IMG/VR virus record: IMGVR_UViG_3300025896_000130
Location: 1-30,679 of that record
DNA: 30,679 nt
Source: a virus
Reading direction: 5' to 3' (one strand)
Under the pieces are notes generated by a model, which worked only from the letters and a program-made list of their open reading frames with translations, was not told the DNA's origin and did no database searches. The position numbers and the translations under genes are program-made. This document shows, one piece after another, positions 22,927 to 30,679 of this stretch (positions are counted from its first letter, which is position 1; every line of letters starts with the position of its first letter).

Positions 22927-23283
22927 ATGCGAATTAATGAGTTAATAACTAATCACCTAGATCATCAGTTTAAAACTGCATATCATGTTACTGGTACTGA
23001 AAATGCAGAAGAAATTCTACACGGTGGACTAGACCCTTATGATGGCAAAGCGTTTATGGTTGTAGACACTGGTGACAAAGATAAGTTACGCAAAGATTTA
23101 AATACTGTTGGTAACTGGATGTACGCCAAGTCAGCGGGCAGTGACGATCCATTAACATTGTTGCAAATTGACATTACAAATTTACCATTAGGACATGAGC
23201 ACGGATGGTACTTTTCAACAATTAAAATCCCCCCTAATCGTATACGAGATTTAGGTGAAGATGAATTGTCAAAATATGTCTAA
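22927..23283 (+). CDS. Small protein with an ADP-ribosyltransferase-like start
   Basis: 118 residues from ATG 22927 (a TTG three bases upstream is also in frame). AYHVTGTENAEEILHGGLDP (18-37) matches the first strand-helix of ART-fold proteins (YHxT...N...IL..GL.P), and the C-terminal LLQIDITNLPL...WYFSTIKIPPNRI fits later strands. The catalytic set is not clear, so activity is uncertain. Expressed late, it could be packaged or act on host targets. Confidence 0.6.
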   Translation: MRINELITNHLDHQFKTAYHVTGTENAEEILHGGLDPYDGKAFMVVDTGDKDKLRKDLNTVGNWMYAKSAGSDDPLTLLQIDITNLPLGHEHGWYFSTIKIPPNRIRDLGEDELSKYV

Positions 23284-23287
23284 ACAG

Positions 23288-23316
23288 TTGACAAGCAAGA
23301 AGAATAAGTATATACT
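23288..23316 (+). promoter_or_regulatory. Sigma70 promoter of the tmRNA gene
   Basis: Consensus TTGACA (23288-23293), 17 bp and TATACT (23311-23316). Predicted +1 is about 23323, followed by hairpin TTGCT/AGCAA. Confidence 0.9.
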
Positions 23317-23340
23317 GTAAGTTATTGCTGTATGAAGCAA

Positions 23341-23600
23341 AGAGAAAAGTGTTCAAGACGCGGGTTCGACTCCCGCCACCTCCACCCAAGTGTATTGGTA
23401 CAGTATATTTGGGTGGGGGTGACCTGGTTTTCGATTGGGCAACAAGTAAATGAGTGGACAGCTCGGGAATGTGAAACCCGTAGGATTGGGGTAACCCGGT
23501 CGTAGAAGCAAAAAACTATAACTGCAAACGATTCAAGTTTCGCATTAGCGGCCTAAACACTGCTTAGGGGAGTTATCCCTCGTAACAGAAAATAACAGAG
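23341..23600 (+). ncRNA. ssrA: Circularly permuted tmRNA (two-piece)
   Basis: The tRNA 3' half comes first: T arm GCGGG-TTCGACT-CCCGC (23360-23376), acceptor strand CACCTCC (23377-23383), A84 and CC. The 5' half follows: GGGGGTG (23415-23421) pairs with CACCTCC over 7 bp including G3-U70, the alanine identity pair. The segment between them (23385-23414) folds into a 10-bp stem stacking on the acceptor, then would be cut out, giving a two-piece RNA. The downstream part has the tag frame GCA AAC GAT TCA AGT TTC GCA TTA GCG GCC TAA (ANDSSFALAA) and GCTTAG-type helices of standard tmRNA. Exact mature ends are uncertain; the encoded 3' end reads ACC-C rather than ACCA. Role: rescue of stalled ribosomes with proteolysis tagging. 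Confidence 0.92.
23524..23556 (+). other. tmRNA tag reading frame (ANDSSFALAA)
   Basis: Resume codon GCA at 23524, ten codons, stop TAA at 23554. The ALAA end is the degron recognised by ClpXP/ClpAP in beta- and gammaproteobacteria; E. coli's tag is ANDENYALAA. Confidence 0.9.
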
Positions 23601-23621
23601 AAGCACCTTCGGGTGCTTTTC
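23601..23621 (+). terminator. Intrinsic terminator of tmRNA
   Basis: AAGCACC/GGTGCTT stem with a TTCG tetraloop, then TTCTTT. Confidence 0.88.
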
Positions 23622-23660
23622 TTTGGCCATAATGAATATGATTTGGCCAACACTTATAGT

Positions 23661-23716: not shown

Positions 23717-24268
23717 ATGAAGAAAATTTTATCAGTTCTAGCCCTAGTGATTAGCGGTTCAGTATTTGCAGGCACAGTAACGCTTGAAGGTCAATCAATT
23801 GACAACGGCAGCGCCGCAGATCAACGCAACGCTAACATGACAGTACGTGAAAATATCACCAAATCTGTCGCTGGACATGTGCAAGTTTCAACTACACAGA
23901 CTGATGGCACCAACGCCGTTTCAACCCGTCTAGAAACTGGCCTAACTGCTACTACAGCATTGTTTGGTCCAGTCAGTGGTTATTCAACAGTTGCTCTTGG
24001 TACTGCATTGAAGTCAAGCGGTAACTACGGCTATTACTCAGTTGAACCAGGTCTATCTGCACCTATTGGCAGCACTGGCCTAACTGCAAAAGTTGGTTAC
24101 CGTCTACGCTCTGCATTCAATGACAGCATTGCTGACACAACACGCACAGCACGAGTTGGTGTATCTTACGCATTGACCAAAGTTGATACAGTTGGTGTTC
24201 GTTACGATCATGTAACAGGTGACGCCACGCAAAAGGCTGTAGCATTGAACTATACACGTTCATTCTAA
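23717..24268 (+). CDS. Secreted outer-membrane beta-barrel-like protein
   Basis: 183 residues. A clear signal peptide MKKILSVLALVISGSVFA is cut before GTV. The mature part has about eight amphipathic strands (VAGHVQVSTTQT, TRLETGLTATTALF, YSTVALGTAL, GYYSVEPGLSA, LTAKVGYRLRS, TARVGVSYAL, TVGVRYDHV, AVALNYTRSF) and ends in phenylalanine, the usual BamA-recognised end of outer-membrane barrels. An eight-stranded porin-like or OmpX-like barrel is inferred. In a phage it could mask receptors and block superinfection. Good Shine-Dalgarno and following terminator. Confidence 0.8.
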   Translation: MKKILSVLALVISGSVFAGTVTLEGQSIDNGSAADQRNANMTVRENITKSVAGHVQVSTTQTDGTNAVSTRLETGLTATTALFGPVSGYSTVALGTALKSSGNYGYYSVEPGLSAPIGSTGLTAKVGYRLRSAFNDSIADTTRTARVGVSYALTKVDTVGVRYDHVTGDATQKAVALNYTRSF

Positions 24269-29407: not shown

Positions 29408-29481
29408 GCGTGGTTAGTTAAGTGGTATAATCAAACGTTGCCAACGTTTAGTTAAGGGTTCGATTCCCTTACCCCGCACCA
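29408..29481 (+). tRNA. tRNA-Gly(GCC)
   Basis: Cloverleaf with anticodon stem AAACG/CGTTT, loop TTGCCAA (GCC) and T arm AAGGG-TTCGATT-CCCTT. The acceptor stem has one U-C mismatch. CCA is encoded. Confidence 0.9.
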
Positions 29482-29490
29482 AGTTTTGCA

Positions 29491-29540
29491 AGTGTTGTAG
29501 AAATACAACAAAATAGTTTCAAATAAGTGTTGACAAGATG
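29491..29540 (+). repeat. 50-bp direct repeat, copy 1 (contains promoter -35)
   Basis: Identical over 50 bases to 29598-29647. Contains hairpin TGTTGTA-GAAA-TACAACA and ends just after TTGACA. Confidence 0.95.
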
Positions 29541-29558
29541 GTCAAAGTACCATATAAT
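29530..29558 (+). promoter_or_regulatory. tRNA operon promoter P1
   Basis: TTGACA (29530-29535), 17 bp and TATAAT (29553-29558). +1 about 29565, followed by hairpin TACTGTA-GCAA-TACAGTA (29566-29583) at the RNA 5' end. Confidence 0.88.
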
Positions 29559-29597
29559 AGTCACATACTGTAGCAATACAGTAAGAGGTTAGTGAGA

Positions 29598-29647
29598 AGT
29601 GTTGTAGAAATACAACAAAATAGTTTCAAATAAGTGTTGACAAGATG
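29598..29647 (+). repeat. 50-bp direct repeat, copy 2 (contains promoter -35)
   Basis: Perfect copy of 29491-29540, 107 bp downstream. Only the upstream/-35 part is duplicated; the spacer and the region after the -10 differ. Confidence 0.95.
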
Positions 29648-29665
29648 ACGTAACTGTCGTATAAT
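29637..29665 (+). promoter_or_regulatory. tRNA operon promoter P2
   Basis: TTGACA (29637-29642), 17 bp and TATAAT (29660-29665). +1 about 29672. Confidence 0.88.
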
Positions 29666-29678
29666 TGATACTTACACA

Positions 29679-29723
29679 GCAACAAACGATCGAGTTAGTT
29701 GCAATTGATCTTTAACAATTTGG
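29679..29723 (+). promoter_or_regulatory. rRNA-like antitermination leader (boxB hairpin plus boxA)
   Basis: A GCAAC...GTTGC hairpin (29679-29702, extended by AAC/GTT) is followed by TGATCTTTAACAATTT from 29706. The latter matches 11 of 12 bases of E. coli rrn boxA TGCTCTTTAACA, including the AATTT that follows. The order boxB then boxA is that of rRNA leaders. It could recruit host NusB/NusE and let polymerase cross hairpins in the tRNA array. Confidence 0.75.
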
Positions 29724-29733
29724 TGACATTTTT

Positions 29734-29808
29734 ACTGCTATCGTCTATCGGTTAGGACACTAGGTTTTCAACCTGGTAAGCGGGGTTCGACTCCCCGTAG
29801 CAGTACCA
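29734..29808 (+). tRNA. tRNA-Glu(UUC), copy 1
   Basis: Acceptor ACTGCTA/TAGCAGT, anticodon arm CTAGG-TTTTCAA-CCTGG (TTC), T arm CGGGG/CCCCG, encoded CCA. Confidence 0.93.
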
Positions 29809-30049
29809 TATTAAATTGCATTAGGTTACCAACCCAGTAGGTAACATAGCATCGCGATGTTGACAGCCGTGTCAGCCGTGCTAAGTTACATGAAAGATGG
29901 AAACGAAGCCTTAGGGTGGATACTGTATAATCGCGCTGGAACAAGTTGTCATGTAATGTGCTTGGGAGACAAGTCCGTGGACGGCACGGTAGGGCAGGTT
30001 CAAAACTGTTATTTCTGGCAAGCATCCTAGTGTAATTTAATATGGTAAT
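29809..30049 (+). ncRNA. Unassigned structured region in the tRNA array
   Basis: 241 bases with no convincing ORF or tRNA. Possible helices: GTTACC/GGTAAC (29825/29840), palindrome CATCGCGATG (29850-29859), GACA-GCCG-TGTC (29862-29873), a long-range TTACATG/CATGTAA (29886/29950), and CCGTG-GACGG-CACGG (29975-29989). It may be a small RNA, a ribozyme or a degraded tRNA/intron. No family is recognised. Confidence 0.4.
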
Positions 30050-30124
30050 GGGGGCAGTAGTGGGCTACGGGTTTGCTTTGCATGCATGCTGTCTAGAAGG
30101 GTTCGATTCCCTCGGCCTCCACCA
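30050..30124 (+). tRNA. Atypical tRNA-Ala(UGC)
   Basis: Acceptor GGGGGCA/GGCCTCC with G3-U70 (30052/30118), T loop TTCGATT and encoded CCA. TGC anticodon in loop TTTGCAT. The D arm is odd (GTAG-TGGG-CTAC directly after the acceptor), the anticodon stem has a T-T mismatch, and the variable loop is long. May be functional, divergent or decaying. Confidence 0.65.
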
Positions 30125-30133
30125 AGTTTATAA

Positions 30134-30207
30134 GCGGGATTAGTTTAATGGCAAAACAGCAGATTTCCAATCTTCGGTCATCAGTTCGATTCTGATATCC
30201 CGCTCCA
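30134..30207 (+). tRNA. tRNA-Gly(UCC)
   Basis: Acceptor GCGGGAT/ATCCCGC, loop TTTCCAA (TCC), T loop TTCGATT, encoded CCA. One mismatch in the anticodon stem. Confidence 0.9.
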
Positions 30208-30213
30208 AGTTTT

Positions 30214-30282
30214 GAAACCACATCGCCTGGATACTTCTCTCAGCAATGAGACACTAGGTCTTGCAACCGTGGTTTCTTTTTT
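30214..30282 (+). ncRNA. Structured non-tRNA element with terminator-like end
   Basis: GAAACCAC (30214-30221)/GTGGTTTC (30269-30276) enclose CCTGG/CTAGG (30226/30254) and TCTCA-GCAA-TGAGA (30238-30251), followed by TTTTTT. It occupies a tRNA-sized slot between two tRNAs. Could be an attenuator, terminator or small RNA. Confidence 0.6.
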
Positions 30283-30357
30283 GACGCTATCGTCTATCGG
30301 TTAGGACACCTGGTTTTCATCCAGGCAAGCGCGGTTCGATTCCGCGTAGCGTTACCA
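30283..30357 (+). tRNA. tRNA-Glu(UUC), copy 2
   Basis: Acceptor GACGCTA/TAGCGTT (first pair G-U), anticodon arm CCTGG-TTTTCAT-CCAGG (TTC), T arm CGCGG/CCGCG, CCA. Shares its D region with copy 1 but differs in the stems. Confidence 0.93.
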
Positions 30358-30364
30358 AGTTTTT

Positions 30365-30439
30365 GCGGCATTCATATAATGGTCATTATCTCGGATTGTC
30401 TATCCGAAGACGGGAGTTCGATTCTCCCATGTCGCGCCA
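30365..30439 (+). tRNA. tRNA-Asp(GUC), copy 1
   Basis: Acceptor GCGGCAT/ATGTCGC, anticodon arm TCGGA-TTGTCTA-TCCGA (GTC), T arm GGGAG/CTCCC, discriminator G, CCA. Confidence 0.93.
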
Positions 30440-30448
30440 GTTAGTATT

Positions 30449-30532
30449 GCGAGTGTGGCGAAATGGTATACGCAAGAGACTTAAAATCTCTCGTCGAAAG
30501 GCATGCCGGTTCGAGTCCGGCCACTCGCACCA
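30449..30532 (+). tRNA. tRNA-Leu(UAA)
   Basis: Class II tRNA with a long variable arm. Acceptor GCGAGTG/CACTCGC, anticodon arm AGAGA-CTTAAAA-TCTCT (TAA), T arm GCCGG/CCGGC, CCA. Confidence 0.95.
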
Positions 30533-30536
30533 ATTT

Positions 30537-30612
30537 ACCCTTATAGCTCAGCTGGTAGAGCACCGCCTTGATAAGGCGTAGGTCCCTGGTTCGAGTCCAG
30601 GTGAGGGTACCA
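30537..30612 (+). tRNA. tRNA-Ile(GAU)
   Basis: Acceptor ACCCTTA/TGAGGGT, D arm GCTCAGCTGGTAGAGC, loop TTGATAA (GAT), T arm CCTGG/CCAGG, CCA. Very canonical. Confidence 0.94.
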
Positions 30613-30618
30613 GTTTTA

Positions 30619-30679
30619 GGTCTGTTCGTATAGAGGTTATTACTGCGGATTGTCTATCCGCTTACGGGGGTTCGATTCC
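30619..30679 (+). tRNA. tRNA-Asp(GUC), copy 2, cut by the window end
   Basis: Starts GGTCTGT; anticodon arm GCGGA-TTGTCTA-TCCGC (GTC); the T arm begins at GGGGGTTCGATTCC where the window stops. The body is quite different from copy 1. Confidence 0.85.

Follow-up and report, generated by a model that had tools for sequence, protein, structure and literature searches.

A circularly permuted tmRNA gene in a phage genome fragment, and protein genes in the spacers of related phage tmRNAs

The viral DNA analyzed here (IMG/VR record IMGVR_UViG_3300025896_000130, 30,679 nt, hereafter the window) contains an intact circularly permuted tmRNA gene at 23274–23622 on the plus strand, which was recovered by ARAGORN, by cmscan and by reading of the sequence itself. 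The feature is most likely a real, functional phage two-piece tmRNA with an added hairpin specific to its clade. We put at roughly 0.8 the probability that it is a working permuted phage ssrA with its own promoter, whose product loses its spacer and acts as an alanine-charged two-piece RNA that rescues stalled ribosomes and adds the tag ANDSSFALAA. Phage tmRNAs are usually regarded as borrowed host genes. The gene found here belongs to a large phage-only lineage with a structural element of its own, varied degradation tags, in some cases its own SmpB, and protein genes in the excised spacer, and this lineage offers a direct handle on why phages carry tmRNA.

Anatomy of the Permuted tmRNA Gene

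ARAGORN classified the locus as tmRNA* with the tag ANDSSFALAA. With cmscan, the beta_tmRNA model RF01850 matched 23274–23622 at 137.1 bits (E = 4.6e-42, cut-off 84) and was the match retained for its clan, making it the best-scoring lineage model, while tmRNA_permuted (RF04321) matched 23326–23556 at 115.4 bits (cut-off 47); the same search returned no riboswitch in the window at Rfam cut-offs. The order of the halves is permuted, with the tRNA 3′ half encoded 5′ of the 5′ half: the former ends in ...CCACCTCC-ACC at 23386, and the latter begins with GGGGGTG at 23415. The features of the locus are as follows.

23288–23316, plus strand: sigma-70-type promoter, TTGACA-17-TATACT, 11/12 consensus positions; TTGAC and the −10 region are kept in most syntenic relatives
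23327–23386, plus strand: tRNA 3′ half (3′ piece), with helix partners, T arm, acceptor strand CACCTCC and ACC, from the models and covariation; 5′ end approximate
23387–23414, plus strand: intervening sequence of 28 nt that prolongs the acceptor stem as a hairpin and is presumably excised; relatives have spacers of 24–495 nt at the same position
23415–23600, plus strand: tRNA 5′ half and mRNA-like domain (5′ piece), starting GGGGGTG; 3′ end approximate
23464–23480, plus strand: hairpin at the PK1 position, CGGG-AAUGUGAAA-CCCG, a position common to bacterial beta tmRNAs
23484–23501, plus strand: extra 7-bp hairpin GAUUGGG-GUAA-CCCGGUC, specific to the phage clade, between the PK1-position hairpin and the tag
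23524–23556, plus strand: tag frame ANDSSFALAA-stop with resume codon GCA, from ARAGORN and alignments; −4 A and −5 U conserved
23601–23624, plus strand: terminator-like stem AAGCACC-TTCG-GGTGCTT followed by TTCTTT, from the sequence; compensated in relatives, e.g., CCCGC-TTCG-GCGGG

The G3-U70 alanine identity pair (23417–23381) lies within an intact acceptor stem, and self-pairing of the 28-nt spacer lengthens this 7-bp stem by another 12 pairs, counting G-U pairs. The predicted fold of the RNA had a z-score of −6.4 relative to shuffled sequences. Resume codon, stop codon and LAA-type ending were all present in the tag frame, and the D-loop (UUUUCGA) carried one T more than that of most relatives. 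The encoded 3′ end of the 3′ half is ACC-C, as in the RF01850 consensus, which likewise has C there, so an enzyme must complete the CCA. These results bear out the sequence-only reading as far as the anatomy of a phage-encoded two-piece tmRNA is concerned: both covariance models scored above their cut-offs, the claimed G3-U70 pair and ANDSSFALAA frame were recovered, the spacer folds into a stem-loop that extends the acceptor, and a near-consensus promoter and the TTCG stem, followed by a T-rich tail, are present. Promoter-like matches arise by chance at 1.4 per shuffled region, so it is the closeness to consensus, together with conservation in syntenic relatives, that supports the promoter. 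The terminator scan listed the 23601–23624 stem for the minus strand only.

Proposed Function

We infer that the window tmRNA is expressed and functional, and by analogy with other tmRNAs we propose the following course of events. A single precursor would be transcribed from the gene's own promoter, and host tRNA-processing enzymes would recognize the acceptor-spacer hairpin, with an RNase P cut at 23415 and, at 23386, trimming of the 3′ end and addition of CCA. This would remove the spacer and leave two pieces that stay paired, and the resulting RNA would be charged with alanine via G3-U70. Once bound by SmpB, either the host's or, as in some relatives, the phage's, it would, during infection, enter ribosomes that have stalled on broken mRNA and append ANDSSFALAA, freeing the ribosomes for phage translation and marking the truncated proteins for a host protease. 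In relatives, the same spacer serves as a slot for small protein genes.

It is possible, though we consider it unlikely, that a more specific selective benefit explains the working tmRNA, namely that the tag sends host proteins or toxin-cleaved nascent proteins to proteolysis, thereby recycling amino acids or blunting defenses. Recycling of amino acids has been proposed for phage Melnitz (PMC9004378), and both the gene's own promoter and the diversity of tags within the clade would fit such a role; however, the tag in the window is an ordinary one, and general ribosome rescue would fit the same observations.

Selection on the RNA and a Phage-Only Clade

When 19 phage copies were aligned, standard pairs occupied 95.6% of stem cells, compared with 43–51% when the pairing partners were slid, a control that corrects for relatedness (a shuffle control, by contrast, ignores kinship). 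Both sides had changed in 16 of the 24 core pairs, while G3-U70 was invariant (19/19). The high proportion of paired stem cells and the constancy of G3-U70 indicate that selection acts on a structured RNA. The AND...LAA tag and the A at −4 before the resume codon were also conserved in alignments of relatives. In syntenic relatives from IMG/VR (L038–L042), the neighboring protein was 63–70% identical and the tmRNA was kept upstream of this same neighbor, with compensated acceptor stems (GGGCCUG/CAGGUCC and GGGGAUG/CAUCUCC) and a compensated terminator. An apparent loss of the tmRNA in the relative L037 was rejected, as the gene sits elsewhere on that contig.

In a tree built from the conserved parts of 56 rows (165 columns), the window gene fell into a phage-only clade of 17 rows with support of 98/100, together with phage tmRNAs and with none of the sampled bacterial ssrA genes. 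In the same tree, phage and bacterial two-piece genes fell together on one side and one-piece genes on the other, at only 57/100, and one phage tmRNA (L028) was placed among the bacterial permuted tmRNAs. Two relatives with long spacers passed the alpha lineage model only.

The extra hairpin at 23484–23501 is common to the window and most of its clade. All seven pairs were present in 106 of 109 unique 5′ pieces, with an A-U/G-C exchange at one pair. At least 120 viral contigs contained the motif, and none of the 399 Burkholderiales genomes did. The viral occurrences lay within permuted tmRNAs (88 of 132 by ARAGORN call, the 44 others recognized by eye as tagged 5′ pieces); with about a third of the motif-found members not called by ARAGORN, tmRNAs of this clade are easily overlooked. 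For all except 14 of 128 5′ pieces, a 3′ piece was found no more than 500 nt upstream. Truly split genes, with distant halves, were considered and rejected: L328 apart, the exceptions were explained by a nearby contig end or by a 3′ piece that our filter missed because of a mismatch or a different loop. Several tRNA genes were also seen just upstream of the tmRNA gene in relatives.

This conservation makes it quite improbable that the gene is merely a captured host ssrA, neutral baggage or decaying in the phage. Such capture would not be surprising in itself, given that tmRNA genes are common sites of integration and recombination and that host-like genes occur in phages, as the position of L028 illustrates. 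Neutral carriage is, however, at odds with the strong covariation, with a phage-only clade that has its own extra hairpin, and with the finding that the gene is kept in the same place in a relative at about 77–78% DNA identity.

SmpB and Tag Diversity

The 30.7-kb window itself contains no SmpB gene. On the L037/L440 contig, the DnaB of which is 89% identical to that of the window, smpB lies directly upstream of the tmRNA gene, which ties the RNA to trans-translation. The same arrangement was found in three further contigs (L443, L444, and L445), four in all, and in two others (L442 and L441) smpB and the tmRNA gene were within about 0.4–2.1 kb of each other; L439/L440 is among the direct smpB-tmRNA arrangements. 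Like the spacer genes described below, these are computational findings on assembled viral contigs, several of which are independent contigs for one type. A diverged tRNA-like 3′ half is common to most of the SmpB-linked tmRNAs, a pattern that a cognate SmpB-tmRNA pair would be expected to show. SmpB was absent from the 19 other phage records searched, some of which are fragments, and most of these phages would thus depend on host SmpB.

The tags varied, mostly following the pattern ANDxxFALAA, with other endings including ALVA, FLMAA, LLAANA, and RLAA. Long tags of 22 to 34 residues also occurred, e.g., ANVNKTVTVSGKNVKFSARTAKEALAV. These were seen in L008, L016, L032, L022, L264, L245, L252, L311, and L424, and they form recurring families (TVSGKxVKFSAR..., DFSAMSFTGNTV...), some ending in ALAV or FAV rather than LAA. 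In the window gene, the tag is an ordinary one and the spacer a plain one of 28 nt.

The unusual tags of other clade members could conceivably poison or redirect tagging, and a tmRNA-like RNA lacking a coding sequence in mycobacteriophage DS6A is cited in PMC11915505 as a precedent for a phage RNA acting as a decoy or inhibitor that competes with the host tmRNA. For the window gene, whose canonical LAA tag is complete and whose stop codon and resume region are intact, we find a decoy role very improbable and retain the reading of a working tmRNA.

Phage Identity and Host

The window is, judging from its gene content and order, a fragment of a PA5oct-type jumbo phage. Its replication and structural block is collinear with that of the 287-kb Pseudomonas phage PA5oct (Arenbergviridae), the order of 17 matching ORFs being the same at 26–52% identity, and the best matches of its DnaB were PA5oct and relatives (50–51%); only the large subunit of RNR was closest to Pelagibacter phage Mosig and cyanophages. 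The collinear block places the window among the PA5oct-like jumbo phages, with formal assignment to the Arenbergviridae provisional for a 30.7-kb fragment. The DnaB matches and the 17-ORF collinearity led us to reject the placement among T4-like phages that the sequence-only reading had made. PA5oct itself had no tmRNA above cut-off, so the wider family can do without the gene, and among 50,697 phage genomes no close copy of the window tmRNA was present, the best match showing 71% identity over 42% of the gene.

The ALAA tag had been taken to favor a beta-type source and to point to the host. The first part agrees with the RF01850 match, but the second did not hold: the ANDSxFALAA tags of the GTDB genomes that could be checked belonged to one-piece tmRNAs from several members of the Burkholderiales, and in the tree the window tmRNA fell among those of phages. 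A host assignment from the tag was therefore rejected, this tag type being found on one-piece genes in many Burkholderiales; the GC content of the window (42%) does not decide the host either. Permuted tmRNAs scoring at least 120 bits were found in only about 16 of 399 Burkholderiales genomes. Three of these (G164, G185, and G259) each carried a one-piece tmRNA plus an additional permuted one, and this second gene is possibly on a mobile element.

Although ssrA is often used as an attachment site by phages and islands (PMC11915505), the idea that the locus is a remnant of integration is hardly credible for a complete gene with promoter and terminator, in a phage of the jumbo lytic type and with no integrase among the ORFs scanned.

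Elsewhere in the window, eight tRNA genes and a ninth cut by the window end are clustered at 29408–30679. A gene at 23717–24268 encodes a small, secreted beta-barrel-like protein with an apparent signal peptide and a weak Porin_4 match; relatives have a similar gene downstream of their tmRNA.

Protein Genes in the Spacers of Related tmRNAs

Spacer length in the window's clade and its close kin ranged from about 24 to 495 nt among the matches listed. In 41 of the 56 unique spacers of at least 120 nt among these matches, a single ORF led by a Shine-Dalgarno sequence filled at least 75% of the spacer, compared with a mean of 1.5 and a maximum of 4 in shuffled spacers; the spacer scan is biased towards spacers with a Shine-Dalgarno sequence and its counts are lower bounds, whereas the extra-hairpin motif scan is free of this bias. 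The stop codon preceded the first base of the 5′ piece by exactly 1 nt in 31 cases and by 12–13 nt in 13. Products include a thioredoxin with the motif WCGPC in L363 (Pfam E = 4.1e-21) and a DUF2061 protein in L254 (Pfam E = 3.5e-20). Of 13 comparable pairs, 11 had a dN/dS of 0.10–0.30, and the remaining two had a single synonymous difference each. Other loci with spacer genes include L291, L317, L324, L384, L393, L257, L431, and L312, as well as L404, L335, L339, L239, and L265.

The tmRNA remained intact around these genes, with G3-U70 in 60/60 and a perfect T stem in 59/60, and RF04321 matches spanned the whole gene, ORF included, in L363 (136 bits), L330 (118.5 bits), and L254 (104 bits). 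The ends of each spacer paired over a mean of 12.4 of 14 positions; arms taken from different spacers also paired over 11.2, because the arms are conserved, which makes this pairing weak as covariation. The Shine-Dalgarno sequence of the spacer gene sits inside the stem that closes the spacer, and its predicted probability of being unpaired had a median of 0.0 in the complete precursor. With the 3′ arm still to be transcribed the value was 0.58, and ordinary genes of the window gave 0.46. On this folding model, translation of the cargo may be confined to nascent RNA with a still-open stem or to processed RNA.

Taken together, we hold with moderate confidence that ssrA in this jumbo-phage lineage is a two-function transcript. 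Its spacer would accommodate protein genes that can replace one another, among them a thioredoxin gene, one for a DUF2061 membrane protein and further small ORFs, with the Shine-Dalgarno sequence and stop codon in opposite arms of the stem such that cargo translation and folding are mutually exclusive, and some members, with their own smpB upstream and strongly altered tags, would run trans-translation themselves. This would be a new way of embedding a protein gene in the gene of a structured RNA, its start signal hidden in the processing stem of that RNA. While permuted phage tmRNAs were already known, we could not find protein genes in their spacers described before in the open-access literature; the spacer contents named in the tmRNA database paper are a single tRNA gene and a single repeat, and protein genes are not among them (PMC11915505).

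The spacer ORFs of L257, L317, L322, L224, and L431 share with the window ORF at 22927–23283 the N-termini MRINEL or MRIKELTE, which may resemble the capsid-targeting leader of T4-type packaged proteins. The window ORF had no Pfam hit and no match to a solved structure, and its homology to the L257 spacer ORF, suspected by eye, was unsupported (E = 0.31).

Comparison With Known Systems

The window gene resembles the betaproteobacterial two-piece tmRNA (RF01850, RF04321) in gene order, acceptor-spacer hairpin, tRNA-like domain, promoter position and AND...ALAA tag, but differs from it in its extra hairpin at 23484–23501, in being phage-borne and in belonging to a separate phage-only clade. A permuted tmRNA in a T4-like phage had been thought unusual, yet such genes are already published for Melnitz (PMC9004378) and Marzo (PMC8928761). 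Indeed, 133 unique phage tmRNAs have been reported, 53 of them two-piece and nearly all aquatic, with that of the OM43 phage Melnitz among the two-piece forms (PMC9004378). Like the window gene, the Melnitz/pelagimyophage ssrA is permuted, encodes a tag, resides in a large aquatic phage and presumably uses host SmpB (PMC9004378); it is, however, of the alphaproteobacterial type, in a T4-like phage with a glutamine riboswitch, whereas the window gene is beta-type, in a PA5oct-like jumbo phage fragment with no Rfam riboswitch. The T4-like Stenotrophomonas phage Marzo has a ‘Betaproteobacter-class’ tmRNA (PMC8928761), and this gene and those of Mendera, Bhz51, and DLP6 are permuted and of the RF01850 type, as in the window, but these phages belong to other families, their tags differ (ANDDSFAPMAIAA and others), they lack the extra hairpin, and the best of them matched at about 71% over 42%. 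Among published examples of protein genes within tmRNA genes, the closest to the spacer genes of the relatives are tmRNA genes with group I introns, some of which carry homing-endonuclease genes (PMC11915505). There, a self-splicing intron interrupts the T loop and the RNA is rejoined, whereas in the relatives a spacer is excised with no intron or rejoining, and the identified proteins are not endonucleases.

Permuted tmRNAs were also found in phages of Stenotrophomonas, Xanthomonas, Acinetobacter, and Alcaligenes, the gene being unannotated in many records. Unannotated beta-type examples include those of Acinetobacter phage BUCT628 (L005), Alcaligenes phage QDWS595 (L006), Xanthomonas phage Rb1 (L004), and Stenotrophomonas phage DLP6 (L002), three of which have gammaproteobacterial hosts that probably use one-piece tmRNA.
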